From positions 1 to 43,942 of IMG/VR virus record IMGVR_UViG_3300015245_000017: a DNA stretch of 43,942 bases. The stretch is one strand, 5' to 3'. Below, piece after piece: positions 2,871 to 43,634 of the stretch (the stretch's first letter is position 1; each line of letters begins with the position of its first letter). The notes under the pieces were generated by a model. That model was given only the letters and a program-made list of their open reading frames with translations, was not told the DNA's origin and did not search any database. A program made the translations under genes and the position numbers. Source of the stretch: a virus.

Positions 2871-3091
2871 TGCCAAGCCATCAAGATAGAATCTCTAAGG
2901 CATATAGCGATTTATGCTCCCGTTGCCTTAGTAGGAAAAATAGAGAATGGGACAATGAAACACCATATCCATATCTGTGTGATGTATGTTCCTGGATAAA
3001 TCATCTACATAATAAAGTTGTTAATTCATTACCTGAATCTATCATTAAGCGAATGACAGATGTAGAGAAAAAAGGATGCCTAGATACGTAG
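2870..3091 (+). CDS. Small zinc-ribbon-like protein
   Basis: A 73-residue protein with two cysteine pairs, CSRC (about residues 16-19) and CDVC (about residues 37-40), the spacing of a zinc ribbon. It overlaps the polymerase start by 16 bp. It is one of at least ten short proteins in this genome with paired CxxC motifs. Role unknown; DNA, RNA or protein binding is possible. Confidence 0.6.
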   Translation: MPSHQDRISKAYSDLCSRCLSRKNREWDNETPYPYLCDVCSWINHLHNKVVNSLPESIIKRMTDVEKKGCLDT

Positions 3092-5532
3092 GAGGGATCG
3101 GTCCATTAGAGCCAGATTTAATGGCAGTGGGAGAGGCACCTGGTAAACATGAGCATGAGACAGGTGTACCATTCTCAGGTCCAGCCGGTGAAATATTTGA
3201 TGATTGTTTAAGAAAAGCAAATATTCGACGAAGTGATGTATATATAACTAATGTATGCAAGTATCAACCACCTATGAATGACTTAACGAAGTTACATTTA
3301 ATAGGTGTTGACATAAATAAGGAATCGGAGAATCTCTGGAATGATGAAATCAAACCGAGAAGACCCAAGTGTATCTTGGCTATTGGGGATACTGCTCTTA
3401 ATCATATTACTGGATATTCTGGCATACTTAATTATCGCGGGAGTATTCTCCTGGCTAAAGATGGCGTTACAAAGGTAGTCCCAACTATACATCCAGCCGC
3501 TCTGTTTAACCGAGGTGACAAAGGTGGACTTGAATACACGTACATCAAGCTCATTGAATCAGATATTGCACGGGCTGTTGAAGAATCCAAAAGTAGGCAG
3601 TTATCTCTACCGAATAAAGAACTCGATATATGTCACAATTCGCTTGACCTCTACAGATTCTTCGACAAATACAAAAACTTCGACAAAGCGTCGGTTGATA
3701 TCGAATCTATTAATTGCGTGCCAGTTTGTGTTGGCTTTGCTTTCAACAGGCACCACGCAATCTCTGTGCCTTTACTTAGGACTATTGGTAAGCATAAGCT
3801 CACTGATATGGGAGACTATGAACTTGACGAAATATGGAGATTGATTGACAGCCAGCTCAGACGGCTACGTATTATTGGGCAAAACTTCAAGTATGACGAG
3901 TTCAAACTTAATCTTATTGGTTTTCAATGCCCAAACTTGTACAGCGACACCCTCATTAAGACAAGAGTTATCTTCCCAGAATTACCACAAAAGAAGCTCC
4001 ACGTTCAATCGTCTTTATGGACAAGAGAGCCTTATTACAAAGAGGAAGGCAAAGAGTTTAAGTTCGGCAAGCAGAAAGTTGAACAGTTATTCAAATATAA
4101 TGCTAAGGATTGTGCCGTTACATATGAAATTGATGAGGTACAGGAACAAGACTTAATTGATTTAAGCGATGTTTATGGATTAAAGCTGTTGAACTATTAT
4201 TATAAGTATATGATGAGGAAACATAAATTCTATTTGAAGATGGAGAACAACGGCTTCCTCATTGATTTGCCAAGAAAGAAAGAGCTATCTAAGAAGTATG
4301 GAGAGATGGCTAAGGCAGTTCATGACAAGATAACAGAACTCGTAGGGCATGAAGTAAATGTAGCTAGCTATCCTCAGATGTTTGAATTATTATATAAAGA
4401 AATGAAGTTTAAATTTATGAAACGCAATCCAACATCTGAAGACACAATTGTAGCACTACTGGGGAATCATGCTAAAACAAAAGAGAAAAAAGACATTCTT
4501 ACGAACATCCTTGAAGAACGAAGAATACGTACTCAAAAGTCAAGGAACATCAGCTTCTCTCCAGATTATGATGGGAGGTGTAAAACATCTTTCAGCATAT
4601 CAGCAACGGAGACTTGCAGAAGCTCTACTGGAATTCTCAAAAAGCCTGTCAGACCAAAGAAAATTGGATTGGCATTTCATACTATCGCTAAACATGGCAG
4701 ACTTGCCAAAGATATACGAAGCATGTTTATCTGCGACCCAGGATACGTCATTATCGGAGCCGATAGCAGCCAAGCTGAAGCTAGGGTCGTGGCAGTATTA
4801 GCAGAAGATTGGGAATTATTAGAGGCGTTTGATAAGGTTGACATACATAGACGAACGGCAGGAATGATATTTGGATATACTAGAGAATTAGTCCTGACGA
4901 CTGGTATTGTTCCCGTCGTTGACATAATGGAAAAGGATGGTCCTGAGAGGTTCTGTGGAAAAAAGACTAGGCACGCTGGGAATTACGACATGGGCAAAAA
5001 TGAGTTTATGGTTAATTTCAATACTGATGCTCAGAAGTTCGATATACCTATGTCTATATCTGAATGGCGTTCTGGTCAGATGCTTGAACTTTTTCATGGC
5101 GCATCGCCAAGGATTAGAAATAAGTTCCATAAGGATATCATTGATTGTCTCCAGAGCACAAGAGCGATTGTGGACCCGTATGGCGGTCTTCGTATCTTCA
5201 ATGGAAGAATGGACACTCAGCTCTATAAAGAAGGATATGCAAACATACCGCAAAGAACAGTAGCACATCTTGTGCAAGGTGCAGGATTAACTATTGAAGA
5301 TGAATTGAATGGCGATGTAGAGCATATGTGGCTAAGTGAAGACCATGATAGCCTAAAGATGCAGGTTCCCGCTAACAACTGGGAACCGTATGCTAGGCTG
5401 ATGAAGAAACATTTTGAAGTTCCAATTGATTTCTCTGGCTGTAGCTTGAAACGTGATTACATGTTAACTATTCCATGTTCAATTGAATTTAGTGACACTA
5501 ATTATTCTGAGATGAGACCGATTAAAATATGA
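3076..5532 (+). CDS. Fused uracil-DNA glycosylase / family A DNA polymerase
   Basis: An 818-residue replicative polymerase with an extra N-terminal domain. Residues 1-170 match a UDG-superfamily fold: GEAPGKHE (about 16-23), PFSGPAG, TNVCKYQPP and the terminal IHPAAL. The 3'-5' exonuclease follows with Exo I DIES (about 206), Exo II NFKYDEF (about 269) and Exo III YNAKD (about 338). The polymerase has motif A DSSQAEAR (about 560), motif B KKTRHAGNY (about 630) and motif C HDSL (about 756). All key acidic residues appear present. No N-terminal CxxC of the iron-sulphur family 4 UDGs is visible. It should copy the phage genome and may excise or sense uracil ahead of synthesis. The start has AAAGGA just upstream. 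Other phage polymerases with UDG-like domains exist, but this is not the usual T7 architecture. Confidence 0.85.
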   Translation: MPRYVGGIGPLEPDLMAVGEAPGKHEHETGVPFSGPAGEIFDDCLRKANIRRSDVYITNVCKYQPPMNDLTKLHLIGVDINKESENLWNDEIKPRRPKCILAIGDTALNHITGYSGILNYRGSILLAKDGVTKVVPTIHPAALFNRGDKGGLEYTYIKLIESDIARAVEESKSRQLSLPNKELDICHNSLDLYRFFDKYKNFDKASVDIESINCVPVCVGFAFNRHHAISVPLLRTIGKHKLTDMGDYELDEIWRLIDSQLRRLRIIGQNFKYDEFKLNLIGFQCPNLYSDTLIKTRVIFPELPQKKLHVQSSLWTREPYYKEEGKEFKFGKQKVEQLFKYNAKDCAVTYEIDEVQEQDLIDLSDVYGLKLLNYYYKYMMRKHKFYLKMENNGFLIDLPRKKELSKKYGEMAKAVHDKITELVGHEVNVASYPQMFELLYKEMKFKFMKRNPTSEDTIVALLGNHAKTKEKKDILTNILEERRIRTQKSRNISFSPDYDGRCKTSFSISATETCRSSTGILKKPVRPKKIGLAFHTIAKHGRLAKDIRSMFICDPGYVIIGADSSQAEARVVAVLAEDWELLEAFDKVDIHRRTAGMIFGYTRELVLTTGIVPVVDIMEKDGPERFCGKKTRHAGNYDMGKNEFMVNFNTDAQKFDIPMSISEWRSGQMLELFHGASPRIRNKFHKDIIDCLQSTRAIVDPYGGLRIFNGRMDTQLYKEGYANIPQRTVAHLVQGAGLTIEDELNGDVEHMWLSEDHDSLKMQVPANNWEPYARLMKKHFEVPIDFSGCSLKRDYMLTIPCSIEFSDTNYSEMRPIKI

Positions 5533-21842: not shown

Positions 21843-22078
21843 TACATTCCACGATACTTATTAACCCAACCCCAATATGGATGGCTAGTACCAATATTTG
21901 ATTCAAGTCCATTAGCCTCCGCTAGTGCATCTTGAATAGATAAAAGAAGTTTTGCTTTTTCTGTAGGCTCAGGTTCTACTACTGGTACTTCTGGTTCTAC
22001 AGGTTTTTTTTCAGGTTCTGGTTCTACTACAGGTTCAACAGGAACAAGAGGATCAAACGGATTCACCAAATCTGTCAT
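21842..22078 (-). CDS. Proline/glutamate-rich linker protein
   Basis: A 78-residue protein from the ATG at 22078; a longer frame to 22183 would lie inside the glycosyltransferase gene and is unlikely. GGTGG lies 3-7 nt upstream of the ATG. Residues 7-36 are a Pro/Glu/Val repeat (VEPVVEPEPEKKPVEPE), stiff and extended. The rest is a small helix with an aromatic WGWVNKY end. Could be a spacer or attachment peptide of the virion. The start overlaps the upstream gene by 26 bp. Confidence 0.5.
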   Translation of the reverse strand: MTDLVNPFDPLVPVEPVVEPEPEKKPVEPEVPVVEPEPTEKAKLLLSIQDALAEANGLESNIGTSHPYWGWVNKYRGM

Positions 22079-23267
22079 TTTCCACCCACCAAATTGTATC
22101 AACGAGGTTGATTTTGCTGAATTTTTCATCCACAGCTTTAACGACGCCAGGCCATACTTTTGAATCATAGTCATGACCTGCAATAATCCAAGGATTCATT
22201 GACATAGATTTTTCAATATCATGCTTTGCTGATTCATAATCATGAGCAGCGTCAATGAAAATAAAGTCAGGCTTGAAACCATTGGGAACAAAATCTTTGT
22301 AATTCATTCTATTGATAATTACCTTCTTAGTTTCGATATGTTCTTGTAAATTCTTTACAAAATCTACATAAGTAGCATCATTTGTTGTGTAGATTGGCTT
22401 ACCATCTGCACCACAAACAACAGAATTCCATGTATCAATGCACATTACTTGTCCAGATGTATTATCTGCAAATGCCCTAGCTGACTTACCCTTATAAGAA
22501 CCAACCTCGAGGATATATTTGTATGTCTTACCAGCTACCCCAAGAAAATCTAATTCTTTATCTGATAACCATCCATCGATACGCCTTGCAATATCAACGT
22601 CAGAAGATGGATATGTAATTGGAAACTGTAAATTACCTTTACCCCGATTATCATAATTAATCATCCAACTATCATTAACACGTCTAAAACCAACATGAAT
22701 TGTCATCATGTGGTCAACAAGTACGCTGGTATCACAGTACATTTTGATGCCAGCATCCCCAAGTTTATTGAAGAATGCAATGTCATCACACCAGCCGTCA
22801 GCTTCTAACTCACCAAGAGTAACCCAAGGCTTTTTAAGTAGATTAAAAACGTGCATCTTAATCAATACACATCCAAAACCACAATTAGTAATTTCAATTA
22901 GACCGTCAATTTCACTCTTGAGATGAGTGTGTCTATTAAATCCGTTTTGAAATCTCTTGTCGAATATTACTGGATAATGTGGAAAATCCCTCATTGGATA
23001 GAGACCTGATACTACATCTTTATCATGAGCTAGCAACTTCTTAAGAATATCTGACGGAGGAATTACATCGTCATCAAGAAATAAGATGTGAGTGCATTCA
23101 TTATCAATAGCTGCCTGAATCATCATATTTCTGCCTTTAGCCGGTGATTGGCCTCTAGCAAACATATGAAGAGTTCCTTCAGCCCTCTCTAATTGATTAT
23201 AATAATCATAGAAAGTAGCATATCTAGATGTTTCACCAGTTGGAACAGCTACTAAAACTTTAGTCAT
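22053..23267 (-). CDS. Glycosyltransferase-methyltransferase fusion
   Basis: A 404-residue, two-domain protein. Residues 1-230 look like a GT-A glycosyltransferase, with HILFLDDDVIP (DDD at 65-67, the metal/nucleotide-sugar site) and DKDVVSGLYPMR. Residues about 240-395 are a class I SAM methyltransferase of the Methyltransf_24 type: YILEVGSYKGKSARAF (SAM loop), CIDTWNS and FIFIDAAHDYESAKHDI. A paralogue of the first domain lies at 32743. It may glycosylate and methylate virion proteins, DNA or host glycans. The target cannot be seen. Confidence 0.75.
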   Translation of the reverse strand: MTKVLVAVPTGETSRYATFYDYYNQLERAEGTLHMFARGQSPAKGRNMMIQAAIDNECTHILFLDDDVIPPSDILKKLLAHDKDVVSGLYPMRDFPHYPVIFDKRFQNGFNRHTHLKSEIDGLIEITNCGFGCVLIKMHVFNLLKKPWVTLGELEADGWCDDIAFFNKLGDAGIKMYCDTSVLVDHMMTIHVGFRRVNDSWMINYDNRGKGNLQFPITYPSSDVDIARRIDGWLSDKELDFLGVAGKTYKYILEVGSYKGKSARAFADNTSGQVMCIDTWNSVVCGADGKPIYTTNDATYVDFVKNLQEHIETKKVIINRMNYKDFVPNGFKPDFIFIDAAHDYESAKHDIEKSMSMNPWIIAGHDYDSKVWPGVVKAVDEKFSKINLVDTIWWVENDRFGESV

Positions 23268-32742: not shown

Positions 32743-33432
32743 TTATGATTTAGTCAAAGGTGTTCTAATCTCACCAAATTTTGTAGGATTCTGTGCTGCT
32801 ACGAATACCTCATCTCCTCCAGTATCAATGGTTGTTGCCCATTTACCTTCAGAGAATGCAGGCCAGAATGTAGTAGTTCCAATATGTCCAATAGGGCAAT
32901 CTAAATCACAATAAATCTTAAACCCAGCCGCTCGTGCTCTATTACAGAAGTCTATATCTTCATTGCGTCTATCTTTAACAATCTCACCATTCCTCACGTA
33001 AGGCTTATCAAGACTTGCAAAGACTTTCGTCTTAACCAAAAGAAAACCAAATCCAGCCGCACTAACCTCCATCAAACCTGCGTTCTCTGGGGTTAGATAA
33101 ATCCTAGACATGGTACCATTTATAAAATTGAAGATAACAGGTGGATGAGGATACTGCCTGTTTACATAGAGTCCTGAAACAATATCTTTATCATGTGATA
33201 GCAACCTGATGAGTGAATCAGTAGGCATAGCCATGTCATCGTCAATAAACAAAACATGGCTCGACTTAGCGGCTAGTGCATCATCAATAATCAAGTTACG
33301 ATTATATGCAGCGGTATTAGAATGAAAGCTAGCACCACAAGTACCTTCTGGCTTCTCAAGCAGCGAGAGATAATCATAGAATGCTGCATGCCGAGCTTGT
33401 TCAGATGTAGGTACGCCAATATATACCTTCAT
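32743..33432 (-). CDS. GT-A glycosyltransferase
   Basis: A 229-residue protein similar to the first domain of the fusion at 22053: VPTSEQARHAAFYDYLSLLE, SHVLFIDDDMAMP (DDD at 64-66), HDKDIVSGLYVNRQYP, and DFCNRARAAGFKIYCDLD. It lacks the methyltransferase domain. It probably moves a sugar to a virion, DNA or host target. The two copies imply duplication inside this genome or separate gain. Confidence 0.75.
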   Translation of the reverse strand: MKVYIGVPTSEQARHAAFYDYLSLLEKPEGTCGASFHSNTAAYNRNLIIDDALAAKSSHVLFIDDDMAMPTDSLIRLLSHDKDIVSGLYVNRQYPHPPVIFNFINGTMSRIYLTPENAGLMEVSAAGFGFLLVKTKVFASLDKPYVRNGEIVKDRRNEDIDFCNRARAAGFKIYCDLDCPIGHIGTTTFWPAFSEGKWATTIDTGGDEVFVAAQNPTKFGEIRTPLTKS

Positions 33433-34374: not shown

Positions 34375-35080
34375 GAGGTAAACATCGCATAAACCCTAGG
34401 AAAACTCGGCGTAGCCGTTGAAGATTTCATTTTTTGAAAGCATCATAATTCATAGTACGTTGTATGGAACCACATATGGAACCAGCTTTTAATTGATGAA
34501 TAATTAAATAATGATAACATACAAATGTGATTAAATAATATGATGACACAAATACGATTAATATCCGGAAATTTTGTGCACATATGGAACCTTACGTGCA
34601 GCTATGTATACCCCTGTGATATGAATTCTTAGTAAGAATTGTGCAGCTATGTGAAAGACTTGCACACTATGACACCGGCTGAGTCAGGATTGCACATGTG
34701 CAGTAGAGTGAACACAGCATACATCATGCCAGTGCAACCCTGTGTCATTCTGTAAAGGCAAGAGTCGTGCCAGTGCAGATTTATGCAGTTCAAACTATGT
34801 GCCACATACCATATATGTAATAGGCATAAGCCGTGCCAATTGAAATATTGTGCAATTACATGCAAATGTGTACAATGAGCCAAAACTGGCTAAAGTGTGC
34901 AGTCTGGTGACATAATGTACAATTTAGAATTGTAATTTACATCTTTGCTTGCTACTGCACACTACTATACATCATTTCTTATGTGAAATTTAGTGATAGA
35001 ATGTGCAAACTTACGATTGACGTTAGTTGCATCACAATTTGGTAATATGCCACCCCAACATATAGGGTCTTCACAGATTG
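34375..35080. other. Repeat-rich, gene-free divergent region
   Basis: No supported gene in about 700 bp. The stretch has CACATATGGAACC twice (near 34471 and 34580), TATGGAACC in close tandem near 34463, GTGCAGCTATGT twice (near 34597 and 34641), GTGCCAGTGCA-type words twice, and more than eight scattered GTGCA/TGCAC words to 35001. It is AT-rich in its first part. It may hold an origin, a packaging signal or regulator sites. A minus-strand open frame at 34647-34883 looks spurious. Confidence 0.5.
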
Positions 35081-35082
35081 AC

Positions 35083-35100
35083 ACCACAACATATTGTGGT
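35083..35100. other. Perfect 7-bp hairpin, loop CATA
   Basis: ACCACAA (35083-35089), CATA, TTGTGGT (35094-35100). No U-run follows on either strand, so it does not look like a terminator. It is a possible dimeric protein site in the divergent region. Confidence 0.55.
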
Positions 35101-35202
35101 TTGGGCCTTGGCACGACCCATGTAGTAGTAGGGTATGGGACGACGGCGCAAGGTTCGATACGCTGAATTGCTCGCAAAGTTAGGTGGAAGTTCTCTGTAA
35201 GT

Positions 35203-35340
35203 CTAGTCCTACTGTCTATCGCGACAGGCAATAAAAGACTAGCATGAGGATACCTAGACTCTGGACTATTCGTGACGCGATATCATTCACTCTCTAGTAT
35301 GTAGCTAGAGTAACGGAGACACGGAATGAACTGCCGTGCA
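35203..35340. other. Structured non-coding stretch before the rightward promoter
   Basis: CTAGTC (35203-35208) pairs with GACTAG (35237-35242), enclosing CTGTC (35212-35216) with GACAG (35223-35227), a nested hairpin. Further on there are CTCTAG/CTAGAG around a 7-nt loop (near 35294-35312) and CACGG/CCGTG (near 35319-35337). No gene. It could be a control region or the end of an RNA made from upstream. Confidence 0.45.
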
Positions 35341-35387
35341 TCTAGACGATAGTCTGGTCCTGGGTTTTTTTTCGCTTCGCTTCGCGC

Positions 35388-35416
35388 TTGACACTTCGCA
35401 CAAATCATGATATAAT
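35388..35416 (+). promoter_or_regulatory. Perfect consensus sigma70 promoter of the rightward arm
   Basis: TTGACA at 35388-35393, a 17-bp spacer and TATAAT at 35411-35416: both hexamers match the consensus exactly. Transcription should start near 35424 and lead into the gene at 35486. It is preceded by a T8 run (about 35365-35372) and a GCTTCGC repeat. It points to use of the host RNA polymerase early in infection. Confidence 0.9.
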
Positions 35417-35485: not shown

Positions 35486-36019
35486 ATGGCTACACAGGCA
35501 ACGTCACCACAGGAATTAGTCACAGTCCGAGACTACGAGAAGGAACGTGCTGCGATTCGTGCAAAACTTGCTGAATCAAAGGATGAGAAGGTTACTCGTG
35601 ATTTGAATCAGCAGCTCCGTGAAGTCGATGCTGATGAAACGAATGCCAAGCGAACTGGTGTTGGTGTTCGTGTTCAGGTTGGTCAGACTCGTGGAAAGAA
35701 TCCAATCGTAATTGATTGGGAAGCATTCGACCGCAGCAAGGTAGAAACTCTGCCAACGTCTATTCAGATGTTCATGGACATCACTACGGTAAAAGATGAG
35801 CCAACTCTCGTCTCTTACCTAATTGATGGATTCAACGATGCTGCTTACACGGCTGCATCTGACCCATTGGCCGAGTTCGTTGACCTTAGCTGGGCACCTG
35901 AAGCCCAGACTCAGTTCCGTCTCGTTGTAAGGAACTATTCCCGTGGTGCGAATGTCCCGCTTGAAGATGCTGTTGCACTCATCAAGCCCGGATTCAGCAA
36001 GCAATTCGATAAGAAGTAA
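35486..36019 (+). CDS. First rightward gene, unknown 177-aa protein
   Basis: The frame opens at 35447, but ATG 35486 with AAAAGGA 9 nt upstream gives the better start (MATQATSPQELVTVRDYEK). An N-terminal charged helix (RAAIRAKLAESKDEKVTRDL) is followed by a folded region with TGVGVRVQVGQTRGKNP, IQMFMDITTVKDEPTLVSYL, and a C-terminal FRLVVRNYSRGANVPLEDA. I do not recognise the family. Base use is richer in G+C than the genome average, and like the capsid gene. As the first gene behind a perfect promoter it is likely an abundant early protein. Confidence 0.65.
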   Translation: MATQATSPQELVTVRDYEKERAAIRAKLAESKDEKVTRDLNQQLREVDADETNAKRTGVGVRVQVGQTRGKNPIVIDWEAFDRSKVETLPTSIQMFMDITTVKDEPTLVSYLIDGFNDAAYTAASDPLAEFVDLSWAPEAQTQFRLVVRNYSRGANVPLEDAVALIKPGFSKQFDKK

Positions 36020-36383: not shown

Positions 36384-36450
36384 CTTTGCAAGTAATTCAA
36401 GCTACTCTTGCATCACGACTCAGAAGCGAATCTTACGCGAAACGTCGCTC

Positions 36451-36491
36451 GTAATGTGTCGTAATGTGTCGTAATGTGTCGTAATGTGTCG
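36451..36491 (-). repeat. 10-bp repeat array A, four perfect copies (core CGACAC inverted)
   Basis: GTAATGTGTC is repeated exactly four times from 36451 to 36490. On the minus strand this places CGACAC every 10 bp (GTGTCG at 36456, 36466, 36476 and 36486). The 10-bp period puts every site on the same face of the helix. It is not a CRISPR: unit and spacing are far too short. Confidence 0.9.
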
Positions 36492-36633
36492 TAACAGAAA
36501 AGAACGTCCGCCCGACCGCAACCTGTTGATTTTTCGAGACTTATCGCCGTTTCGGCCGACGATACCCCTCTCTGGCATAGCCTACCCCCCTCCCTTTTTG
36601 GGGCTCTCGGGTTTCCGTGCTGGGTTTCTGTTG

Positions 36634-36680
36634 TTCTTCTTATTAATATATATAAAAATATATAATAAGAAATACAAGAA
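36634..36680. other. AT-rich stretch (possible DNA-unwinding element)
   Basis: This is an almost pure A/T segment (TTATTAATATATATAAAAAT and onward) about halfway between the two CGACAC arrays. It follows a C/T-rich run. Such a segment next to iterons is typical of a melting site; it could also just be a promoter UP-type region. Confidence 0.5.
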
Positions 36681-36713
36681 ACCAAACACTACCCACAGGG
36701 GAAGGGATAGGGG

Positions 36714-36742
36714 TTGACTTTCGGCAGAGAGTGTTGTATAAT
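36714..36742 (+). promoter_or_regulatory. Rightward sigma70 promoter
   Basis: TTGACT at 36714-36719, a 17-bp spacer and TATAAT at 36737-36742. Start near 36750, so the longer open frame from 36714 cannot be translated from this RNA. It leads into the gene at 36897. Array B lies 50-110 bp downstream and could block or regulate elongation. Confidence 0.85.
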
Positions 36743-36790
36743 CCGTTTGTGGCGCAACCCCAAGTGGGACAACAACTTGCGGACGGATGC

Positions 36791-36860
36791 ACGTTTTGAC
36801 ACTTTCCGACACGTTCCGACACAATCCGACACTTTCCGACACGCTCCGACACGTTTTGTC
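36791..36860 (+). repeat. 10-bp repeat array B, five full copies (core CGACAC)
   Basis: Seven 10-bp units, five with CGACAC (36807, 36817, 36827, 36837, 36847) and degenerate units at both ends (GTTTTGAC, GTTTTGTC). The last four bases of each unit vary in the middle, with the pattern CGACACnnTC. It is the inverted partner of array A, about 315 bp away. Confidence 0.9.
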
Positions 36861-36896
36861 TACTTTAGTGGACACCATCAGTCAGTAAAGAGTAAC

Positions 36897-37100
36897 ATGA
36901 AGTTTTTCAATTCAAAGGAGAATCAAGAAAAAGCAAAGGCTAAAGATTGCCTCCGCAGGAGGCACAGAAGTAGGCTCAATCGAGATAAGGTCAATCGCGA
37001 ACTAACATCGGACAAACAGAAGCTAGCATTTACATCAGCATACTCAGAAGTTCTCGCTTCTATTGCTCAGAAATCAAATAAGAACATCATCAAGTATTAG
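36897..37100 (+). CDS. Small basic protein
   Basis: A 67-residue protein starting at ATG 36897 (MKFFNSKENQEKAKAKD). The upstream in-frame region carries the promoter and array, so it is not coding. It has a run of Arg/Lys (CLRRRHRSRLNRDKVNREL) suggesting nucleic-acid binding. It is first behind the 36.7-kb promoter and just downstream of array B, so autoregulation or an initiator role is worth testing. Not recognised. Confidence 0.55.
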   Translation: MKFFNSKENQEKAKAKDCLRRRHRSRLNRDKVNRELTSDKQKLAFTSAYSEVLASIAQKSNKNIIKY

Positions 37101-37102
37101 TA

Positions 37103-37741
37103 ATGTGGCACTGTAAGGATTGCAATTTCGAAAATGATGACTTAACAATATATTGCAGAGTATGCAATGTGGAGTCTTCGTTAAGTCATTATCTTCGAGG
37201 TTTAGTAGCAATCAAACGTGGAATATTCATTGATTGGGGGTACATGACACCACAAGAAGAGTTATATGCTCAGTTCTATAACAGAGGTAAAATCTTTGTT
37301 AAGGACATGGATATAACTCAGTTAAGAGAGCACAGAGAAAATCTCTCTCAGATTGCATTTGAAGCAAAGGCGACTCTAGCCGCTGCCGATGATGAATTGC
37401 GTGAGAGAAAAGCTAAGTCAGGTAAGAAGGAGTGGGTTATTACTCCTTCAGGACCAGACGTAGTCACTTCAGATGCTATCAATGCCGTAAAAGTTCGTAA
37501 AGAACGAATGAGCAAGATGGATAAGATGAGAATGCAATTGCTCAATGCAGGCATTGACGAAGAGACTGTTAAGGAGATGATTAACAATCTTGAGCGTAAA
37601 GCAACAGAAGCAAACCTCAAGGTTGTTACGTTCAACACTCCAGTAACAGAGACAAAAGCAGTTCAGGTGGAAGTAAAGAAACCTGACGCGATAGCGTCAC
37701 CATTCAATCCGGCAGCACTAACATTCAAAAGTAAGCTCTAG
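37103..37741 (+). CDS. Zinc-ribbon protein with coiled coil
   Basis: A 212-residue protein. CKDC (residues 4-7) and CRVC (18-21) form an N-terminal zinc ribbon like the RanBP2-type or DZR class. A long helical region (about 70-190) includes LREHRENLSQIAFEAKATLAA and LLNAGIDEETVKEMINNLERK. The C-terminus ends SPFNPAALTFKSKL. Likely a DNA- or protein-binding early factor. It starts 2 nt after the previous stop. Confidence 0.55.
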   Translation: MWHCKDCNFENDDLTIYCRVCNVESSLSHYLRGLVAIKRGIFIDWGYMTPQEELYAQFYNRGKIFVKDMDITQLREHRENLSQIAFEAKATLAAADDELRERKAKSGKKEWVITPSGPDVVTSDAINAVKVRKERMSKMDKMRMQLLNAGIDEETVKEMINNLERKATEANLKVVTFNTPVTETKAVQVEVKKPDAIASPFNPAALTFKSKL

Positions 37742-38151: not shown

Positions 38152-39720
38152 ATGGCACTAAGCTCGATAATTAAACAGACGTGCAAGGAATGCGGAAAAC
38201 TCGCTGTTGAGAAGAGCCGTATTTCTTTTGGGACTAGCAAGCTAATCACATTAGAATGTGGTCATTTAGTAAGTGATATCATTATGTCTGGCGGCGAAGC
38301 CGACATAGCTCACATACTAAATGGTTGCACTTTAATGGATTATCAAGTAAAGGGAGTCAAATTTCTAGAGGAAGCTAATGCTAGGGCAATACTTGCTGAT
38401 GAGCAAGGTCTAGGCAAGACAATTGAGATACTTGCACTAATCAAACTACATCAGGAAGAGTTGACACCAGCCGTAATCGTGGTGCCATCTAGCGTCAAGC
38501 TACAATGGCATCACGAAATTCTAAGTAAGTGTGGTGTTGAGGGATTCTTAACACAGGTCATTGATAGCGGTAAGGTATTTGCAGCACCGGGGTTTAACAT
38601 CTACATCACAACCTATGACTTACTCAAGAACGAAGAGTGCTGGAAGTTCGTTAAGGGTCAAATTAAGTTCGTAGCACTCGATGAGTGTCAACGTATTAAG
38701 AATCACGATACCGGTAGGGCTAAAGCCGTTCAGAAGTTTGTAAAGGACATGCAAATTGAACGGGTTATTCCTATGTCTGGAACTCCAATTGAGAATAATG
38801 CTGGTGAAGCATTCACAATCTTTAATTTAGTCGCACCAAGAATGTTTCCACAGTATACAAGATTTATTGAGAATGAATGTGATAGCTATCAGAGTGGTTT
38901 TGGGTACAAAGTTGGTGGGTTAAAAGACCCAGCCGGTTTCCACGAGAAAGTAAAAGATTTCTTCATTCGCAGAAGACAGAAAGATGTTTTGAAAGATTTG
39001 CCTGATTTGCAGCGTAGGTTCTATCAGGTTGAGTTTGACAGGAAATTGAACAAGGCATATGCTGCTCTGATGGAAGAACTAGAAGAAGAATATTACAACG
39101 AAGATACGAGCGGATTTGAGAAGCAAGGTAACATGCTCGCAATCATGAACAAATTGCGGCAAATTACAGGTATTTCGAAAGTAACAGAGTGTGTTGACTT
39201 TGTTACTGAGTTTCTGTTAAGTTGTGACAGAAAGATTGTAGTCTTTGCACATCACCATGCAGCTGAAGACAAGTTAGAAATTGAATTGAATAGTTGGCTT
39301 ATCGAAGGTGGATTTGCCAAATGTATGAGATTCAAAGCTGGTGATGATTTTCAAGTTAAAGGTGAAGCATTCAAGAATTCTGACTCAAGAGTAATGATTG
39401 CATCTACACAAGCTGGAGGTGTAGGAGGTAACCTACAATTTGTGAGTGATGCAGTGATGATGGAACGACAATGGAATCCTAGCAAGGAATCACAAGCTGA
39501 GAAAAGACATCATCGTTACGGGCAGAAGAACAATGTAATCATCACTTATATGATTGCAATTAATACTATTGATGAATATTTCACTGAGCTAGTTGAACAG
39601 AAGAGAGCCGTTGTTGACAGTTCACTAGATGGGACAGAAAGTAGCTGGGATGAAAAGAGTCTTATGACTGAGTTAGCTCAGGTACTTGTTACGAAAGGAA
39701 AAAAGTCATGGAAACTCTAA
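38152..39720 (+). CDS. SNF2/SWI2-type helicase with N-terminal zinc ribbon
   Basis: A 522-residue superfamily 2 ATPase. The N-terminus has CKEC...ECGH, a zinc ribbon. Motif I DEQGLGKT (about 81-88), motif II DECQ (about 176), motif III MSGTPIEN (about 207), motif V STQAGGVGGN (about 419) and motif VI QAEKRHHRYGQ (about 448-458) are all present. These match phage SNF2-like DNA translocases. AAGGA lies upstream of the ATG. It may remodel proteins on DNA or restart forks. Confidence 0.85.
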   Translation: MALSSIIKQTCKECGKLAVEKSRISFGTSKLITLECGHLVSDIIMSGGEADIAHILNGCTLMDYQVKGVKFLEEANARAILADEQGLGKTIEILALIKLHQEELTPAVIVVPSSVKLQWHHEILSKCGVEGFLTQVIDSGKVFAAPGFNIYITTYDLLKNEECWKFVKGQIKFVALDECQRIKNHDTGRAKAVQKFVKDMQIERVIPMSGTPIENNAGEAFTIFNLVAPRMFPQYTRFIENECDSYQSGFGYKVGGLKDPAGFHEKVKDFFIRRRQKDVLKDLPDLQRRFYQVEFDRKLNKAYAALMEELEEEYYNEDTSGFEKQGNMLAIMNKLRQITGISKVTECVDFVTEFLLSCDRKIVVFAHHHAAEDKLEIELNSWLIEGGFAKCMRFKAGDDFQVKGEAFKNSDSRVMIASTQAGGVGGNLQFVSDAVMMERQWNPSKESQAEKRHHRYGQKNNVIITYMIAINTIDEYFTELVEQKRAVVDSSLDGTESSWDEKSLMTELAQVLVTKGKKSWKL

Positions 39721-40319: not shown

Positions 40320-40826
40320 ATGTGCTTGCCAGATTTTATAGAATTCAAACAGATAGATGAATCAGAGGCGGTTACCGGATATAGAAATTGGAGAAATAGT
40401 ATTAGAAATGATGAAACTTTATTTTCAGAAAATCAAGATTATAAATGGTCTAAATTTGAAGGGCCACACCTAGTTAAATCAGAAGATTCTGGCATATATT
40501 CTTATAACTACTACAGCTACAACAACAATTACAGCTACAATTACAGCTACAAATACAGCAACTACTACTACAACAACAACTACAGCAACTACTACAACAT
40601 GCCTGGAATTATTAAACAGTGGGGTAAAGTAGCCATTCATATAGCAGGATATAGGTCTGAGTATGCAAAAATAGAAACATTATTTAATATAAAAGAGATT
40701 AGTGTGGTTGGTTCAAATGAATTTCTGGAATGGGTAGGTAAATTTAATATTAAAATCAGCAAACTTGCAGAAATTTATGAATGCAATGTAATTAGTTGGC
40801 AAGATTTCATAGATGTGAAGAGATAA
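40320..40826 (+). CDS. Protein with Tyr/Asn/Ser low-complexity insert
   Basis: A 168-residue protein. Residues 1-58 and 94-168 look like a folded domain; the end (GIIKQWGKVAIHIAGYRSEYAKIETLF) recalls an uncharacterised family in actinobacterial and phage genomes with WG.V..H..GYRAEYA. Residues 60-93 contain only Tyr, Ser, Asn and Lys, written with repeated TAC/AAC/AGC codons. Flanks use AT-rich codons. The insert looks like a recent trinucleotide/12-mer expansion. Function unknown. Confidence 0.6.
   Translation: MCLPDFIEFKQIDESEAVTGYRNWRNSIRNDETLFSENQDYKWSKFEGPHLVKSEDSGIYSYNYYSYNNNYSYNYSYKYSNYYYNNNYSNYYNMPGIIKQWGKVAIHIAGYRSEYAKIETLFNIKEISVVGSNEFLEWVGKFNIKISKLAEIYECNVISWQDFIDVKR
40497..40598 (+). 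repeat. Codon-level tandem repeat (TAC, AAC, AGC)
   Basis: About 100 bp of mixed TAC, AAC and AGC triplets with a 12-mer ATTACAGCTACA in tandem (near 40529-40552). The third position is mostly C, unlike the neighbouring coding region. The frame stays open, so length changes in steps of 3 would alter the protein without breaking it. Confidence 0.85.
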
Positions 40827-43277: not shown

Positions 43278-43634
43278 ATGACAGCGAAACACACTCATAA
43301 ACTCAAAAGGCATAGATATTCTACAGGTAGCATGGTATATTTCTGCATACTACCTGACTGCCAATTTAAAATTGATTGTGCGCTAGCACTTGGCAAGAAA
43401 TCCATTTGCAATCTTTGTAATAGTGAATTTATTATGACAGAATATACTGTTAAGCTAGCTAAACCACATTGTGAGAAGTGCAGCAAGATTAAGGTGAATG
43501 GCTCAGATGGTAAAAAGAGATACATTCGTCGTGATAGTCTTCCTGTTATGGCTTCCCTTGCTAGCGAAAATACTAATGATTTGCGTTCACGTCTTGACAA
43601 CGCTATTACACCAGTTGCAGATGAAGATATTTAA
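43278..43634 (+). CDS. Zinc-finger protein
   Basis: A 118-residue protein with Cys at LPDC, CNLCNSEF and HCEKCSK, suggesting two zinc sites. The N-terminus is basic with many His (MTAKHTHKLKRHRY). A charged tail follows. It overlaps the next gene by 14 bp. Probably nucleic-acid binding. Confidence 0.55.
   Translation: MTAKHTHKLKRHRYSTGSMVYFCILPDCQFKIDCALALGKKSICNLCNSEFIMTEYTVKLAKPHCEKCSKIKVNGSDGKKRYIRRDSLPVMASLASENTNDLRSRLDNAITPVADEDI

Follow-up and report, generated by a model that had tools for sequence, protein, structure and literature searches.

Iteron systems and the paired arrays of the phage

The partition sites parC (ParMRC) and tubC (TubZRC) have clusters of 10–12-bp iterons around a promoter, and lambdoid phages have type-specific iterons. 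Iteron origins of replication have their iterons next to an AT-rich unwinding element, and IHF or HU acts in between (PMC10797057). At oriS of herpes simplex virus (HSV) the initiator boxes are inverted around an AT-rich, palindromic spacer, and an SF2 helicase acts as initiator (PMC12543377). The origin of the phage satellite PLE has iterons of its own and a dedicated RepA_N initiator (PMC7145576).

How does the present locus compare with these systems? The window, by which we mean the whole 43,942-nucleotide IMG/VR virus record IMGVR_UViG_3300015245_000017, has a 77-bp terminal repeat at its ends, and because of this repeat we take the genome to be a closed circle of ~43.9 kb. Its region 36449–36875 resembles the plasmid theta origins of RK2, F, R6K and pSC101, and the lambda ori with its O iterons, in having tandem arrays, an AT-rich element and a putative bending site. 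But where those origins have one array on one side, the phage has two inverted arrays symmetric about the core; its units are short (10–12 bp), and a Rep, O or DnaA-box component was not detected. As at HSV oriS and oriL, inverted sites, here putative, flank an AT-rich palindrome, and the phage encodes an SF2 (SNF2) helicase in the adjoining operon. HSV, on the other hand, has single boxes where the phage has arrays, each with four to six iterons in phase, and the oriS spacer is far shorter than the ~330 bp between the phage arms. No UL9 relative is shown in the phage, and the comparison concerns only how such sites might work. Like PLE, the phage is a phage-associated replicon with iterons of its own, but no RepA_N initiator was found in it (Pfam, NCBIfam), and the PLE iterons, which are semi-palindromic, are not described as forming two inverted arrays. 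From its sequence features we take 36449–36875 to be an iteron-type replication origin of the phage, with a probability of roughly two-thirds.

Array A (36449–36494) is a perfect 4.6-copy tandem of TCGTAATGTG. It holds four exact 10-bp iterons (TTACGACACA) on the minus strand; the cores, at 36456, 36466, 36476 and 36486, read GTGTCG, which is CGACAC on the minus strand. Array B (36797–36852) is inverted relative to A and carries five exact CGACAC iterons on the plus strand, again in 10-bp steps (36807, 36817, 36827, 36837 and 36847). An in-phase near-match, TGACAC, stands at 36797, one period ahead of the first of these. The inner cores are 315 bp apart (36492–36806). The original prediction of four and five inverted units in 10-bp steps across a gap of ~315 bp is thus confirmed. 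Directly outside array B lies the imperfect palindrome TTGTCTACTTTAGTGGACAC (36856–36875). Palindromes of a similar kind, GTGTCC...GGACAC, occupy the equivalent place in four relatives (G005, G021, G022 and L201), while in other phages a palindrome of this type sits inside the inner region.

Could such a pattern be fortuitous? Slippage can yield tandem repeats, and the contigs are metagenomic. However, a whole-genome search for CGACAC-N4-CGACAC at ≤2 mismatches returned 8 matches, every one of them in arrays A and B, against 0.84 expected (100 shuffles, maximum 5), and the same architecture recurs with different motifs in phages of many metagenomes. The probability that chance, or an assembly artefact through tandem slippage, produced the arrays is practically negligible.

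The array pair across the phage family

Rightward from the arrays run the right-arm genes, which encode an SNF2 helicase, a PD-(D/E)XK exonuclease, an AAA ATPase, a DUF669-like protein, a UDG-PolA polymerase and a DUF3987 helicase-primase; leftward transcription serves the structural genes. The polymerase (3076–5532, +) is a family A enzyme with an N-terminal uracil-DNA-glycosylase domain fused to it; in NCBIfam it also matches, more weakly, the aminoadenine polymerase DpoZ. Its nearest relative, at 27%, is that of Microcystis phage Mel-JY34. Both Mel-JY34 and a second named phage, Desulfofustis LS06, have replication genes in common with the window and lack the array pair. A DNA search against named phages and plasmids gave no match to the window, and the sequences place it in a large set of uncharacterised soil phages without close named relatives.

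Several other genes of the window deserve mention in their own right. A 71-aa protein (1646–1861, +) matches the Pfam family Acb2_Tad1_hairpin at 2e-12 and is likely to be a cyclic-nucleotide sponge against CBASS/Thoeris defence. In the structural operon two minus-strand proteins (22053–23267 and 32743–33432) give weak Anp1 matches below the Pfam cutoff, one of them with a fused Methyltransf_24 domain. A tandem repeat at 40506–40599 (+) codes a low-complexity Tyr/Asn/Ser stretch (SYNYNYSYNN...) within a 168-aa protein (40320–40826).

Relatives were drawn from IMG/VR by two queries, the helicase and the gene beside array A, and were scanned with a detector written for inverted pairs of phased arrays. 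In the window the A/B pair scores 141 and the runner-up place 90. Many relatives exceed 100 in the region upstream of the helicase, whereas loci with remote helicases mostly score <90; further array loci were reached solely via the search with the neighbouring gene. Over whole genomes, 29 of 35 group records, the window and some near-duplicates among them, had an accepted pair of period 10, 11 or 12 with a score >100. The pair usually scores far above the second-best place, being single in each genome and the top place in most relatives. Units follow each other every 10 bp in the close clade; in the distant clade the step is 11 bp, and in one case 12. An array holds some four to six of these units, and over 38 phages the inner distance comes to 328 ± 29 bp. 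The original prediction had been made to depend on the arrays being present and phased in relatives; this was looked for and found. By its sequence the array pair is the hallmark of the family, with a layout common to almost all these phages.

Between the arrays

Midway between the arrays a palindrome able to form a hairpin spans 36623–36683 (DNA fold z = -4.4). Its centre is an AT-rich core at 36640–36676, a putative unwinding element. Between this core and array B a sigma-70-type promoter, TTGACT-N17-TATAAT, reads rightward on the plus strand (36714–36742). An AT-rich segment and this promoter are just what had been predicted between the arrays. On the minus strand at 36519–36531 we found an exact match, as sequence, to the IHF consensus of PMC10380432, AATCAACAGGTTG (WATCAANNNNTTR). 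The sequence CAACAACTTGCGG at 36770–36782 (+) is a degenerate version, differing at 3 positions, of a family element, CAACGACTTACAG, which adjoins the right array in 17 of 38 phages at ≤2 mismatches (0.25 in shuffles).

Are these features peculiar to the window? In all 38 phages 34–40 of the 40 core positions are A or T, and the core's position, as a fraction of the inner distance, is 0.495 ± 0.063, where a uniform position would give a standard deviation of 0.25. The central palindrome reaches z < -2 in half of the phages (19/38), compared with 8 of 76 flank windows. Exact IHF sites occur in the inner regions of 9/38 phages, a 20-fold excess over the 0.45 in shuffles; with ≤1 mismatch allowed the figures are 27 and 10.9. 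DnaA boxes are not enriched, an exact box being present in 1/38 phages against 1.1 shuffled. A TTGACN-N17-TATAAT-like promoter points toward the helicase side in 32/38 phages (in two of these it is on the opposite strand, as the locus had been stored reversed) and leftward in none.

It is this promoter that lends substance to another explanation, a paired operator: a phage regulator would bridge both arrays and loop out the promoter between them, switching the right early operon, and there would be no origin here. The arrays enclose a near-consensus rightward promoter in those 32 of 38 phages, and array B starts ~50 bp past the -10 box, within the leader of the transcript. Because the promoter lies inside the array pair, a looping operator keeps some probability. 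But it leaves unexplained the exactly centred AT-rich palindrome, which stands away from the promoter, as well as the enrichment of IHF sites, and no repressor or integrase family was recognised in the window (Pfam, NCBIfam), though the regulator could be novel. We regard an operator without an origin as unlikely. The original prediction had offered an origin or a looping operator; the midpoint palindrome, the IHF-like sites, the phage-specific iterons and the conservation favour the origin, and the operator less so.

Iterons of 10, 11 and 12 bp around a promoter also bear a general likeness in layout to parC of plasmid R1 and tubC. On that analogy the locus would serve a phage-plasmid as its partition site, or centromere, a centromere-binding protein coating the 10–12-bp iterons. 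We consider this highly improbable. Families of the ParA, ParM, TubZ and ParR type, and with them any partition NTPase or centromere-binding family, are absent from the window (Pfam, NCBIfam). No lysogeny genes were recognised in it, and the DNA search of plasmids was without a match. Unlike parC and tubC, moreover, the phage site has inverted arms and a central AT palindrome; a palindrome of this unwinding type is not known to be part of those sites.

What does the GC skew contribute? The check had been suggested with the original prediction, and the cumulative minimum does lie near the arrays. The maximum does not lie opposite them but near 8.5 kb, and third-position skew tracks gene direction: genes of the family encoded beside array A (35486–36019) give +0.17 when they point toward the arrays and +0.21 when they point away. 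Since the skew follows transcription it cannot decide on an origin, and we have not counted it.

Words of the arms and candidate initiators

The word repeated in the arrays differs from phage to phage. CGACAC is found in the window and in L003, L006 and L099; CGAG-type words occur in L022, L075 and L201, and CTCAGAT in L009 and L080. Further words include ACCCGGAAC (L102), TTGGCCGAT (L093), TGCCCTC (L018) and CCGATATAT (L233). Because the detector selects similar arms, the arms were found again independently, by distance from the AT core alone. The left and right arms of one phage, compared in inverted orientation, then have a similarity of 0.74 (10-bp clade, n = 24) or 0.72 (11-bp clade, n = 13), as against 0.39 and 0.32 with the arms of other phages and 0.30 for a phage's own arms in direct orientation. 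The difference between own and foreign arms has Mann–Whitney p = 7e-12 and 5e-8, values calculated from pairs that are not fully independent.

Being inverted repeats whose sequences change together from phage to phage, the arms might act as nucleic acid, pairing with each other as a cruciform or as an RNA or single-stranded DNA hairpin, for instance in packaging or priming. Only the cores, however, are complementary. At the variable spacer positions complementarity is 0.338 in register (n = 500) and 0.311 out of register (n = 1500), and since the spacers do not co-vary we regard the arrays as probable protein sites, not a paired stem. Pairing, which would also leave the tandem helical phasing unexplained, is largely refuted and extremely improbable. 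The shared word most likely reflects one protein reading both arms.

Which protein might this be? None of the known initiator, partition or repressor families is represented among the 61 window proteins (Pfam, NCBIfam) or the proteins also searched in PHROGs, in agreement with the original prediction that the phage lacks a known initiator gene. As no Rep/O-type initiator family was found among the 61 proteins (Pfam, NCBIfam), we call the region origin-like and assign it to no Rep family; its initiator would probably be a new one. Of the two binders originally proposed, neither is upheld: the 67-aa protein at 36897 has relatives in just 5 phages, and the HTH protein at 2401 occurs also in two array-less phages and is uncorrelated with the motif. 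The first gene past array B was likewise rejected as a universal binder, for it is not conserved.

The leading candidate is instead the product of the gene beside array A (35486–36019, +), a protein of 177 aa. Its AF2 model (pLDDT 92) has a basic beta-hairpin with a conserved loop, TRG(K/R), followed by five helices. No family match was found for the protein, cellular genomes have no relative of it, and a fold search of PDB and BFVD with the model returned nothing significant. The gene goes with the arrays across the 10-bp clade, in either orientation. Its sequence correlates with the motif in 23 phages at rho 0.40, part of which phylogeny accounts for; the best column, P73 of the TRGKNP loop, has an uncorrected p of about 0.007. 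In the 11-bp clade a similarly sized gene is often the left neighbour, and hhalign gives a probability of 39% for its relation to the 35486 type (its AF2 pLDDT is 60), so that homology between the clades is only suggestive.

The second candidate is a zinc-ribbon protein (43278–43634, +), present in 23/23 genomes tested, in both clades, and missing from the two array-less named phages. Its family tops the motif correlation among 23 families (rho 0.49, n = 9, not significant). The SNF2-type (SF2) helicase (38152–39720, +), in the early operon beside the arrays, is in every array phage tested, and its sequence does not follow the motif. None of the 23 window protein families clearly tracks the motif class. 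The second gene of the right operon (37103–37741, +) is present in 10/10 genomes of the 10-bp clade tested; its product has a zinc-ribbon-like N terminus and weakly matches the N-terminal oligomerisation domain of H-NS (6.5e-5, just below the cutoff).

The DNA to the left of gene 35486 has features of its own. About 1 kb (34375–35388) is without convincing genes, though short stretches are kept in relatives. A leftward promoter-like sequence, TTGACA-17-TATGAT, marks its left edge (34374–34346), and a perfect 12/12 consensus promoter (35388–35416) lies upstream of gene 35486. Also upstream of that gene, at 35190–35252 (+), is a three-stem hairpin element with an invariant unpaired GTAAGT. Copies occur at L038:14279–14350, L052:14256–14327, L099:6604–6675 and L218:2767–2838. 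In these 5 phages 17/17 pairs hold in each sequence, 11 of them with compensatory double changes (0/500 shuffles), while slid controls fail. There is no Rfam match, and the element is probably a new structured RNA, or single-stranded DNA hairpin, of these phages. A search for an origin element common to it and the array region was not significant overall.

Against an origin at the arrays stand the lack of a known-initiator gene, of DnaA-box enrichment and of a protein that convincingly follows the motif class, together with the enclosed promoter, which also fits an operator. How, then, might an iteron origin at 36449–36875 work? A sequence-specific phage initiator would occupy both arrays, ~4–6 10-bp iterons in each on one face of the helix. 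With the arrays inverted, two initiator assemblies would face one another over the central AT-rich palindrome. Host IHF would bend the DNA between array and core, and the assemblies would strain and melt the core. There the phage replisome (DUF3987 helicase-primase, UDG-PolA polymerase, SSB-like protein and SNF2 helicase) would load, probably bidirectionally. Lying beside the core, the TTGACT/TATAAT promoter would drive the right early operon and may also aid opening or give a primer.

We would go further only tentatively. It is possible, though on balance doubtful, that dyad-symmetric twin iteron arrays around an AT palindrome form a new class of origin, that their word is rewritten in almost every phage, both arms together, that 35486–36019 encodes a new initiator family, and that the diversification is an escape from origin-titrating decoys, satellites and co-infecting relatives. 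Lambda is arrested by ectopic copies of its ori (PMC4488673).

The array pair makes the likely origin recognisable from sequence in a large uncultured phage group without close named relatives. Some 25–30 origin motifs on one conserved scaffold would constitute a natural series in which initiator specificity and its co-change with the iterons could be followed. The array pair also opens two questions to test: what drives the rapid diversification of phage origins, and which protein initiates replication where no initiator is recognised.
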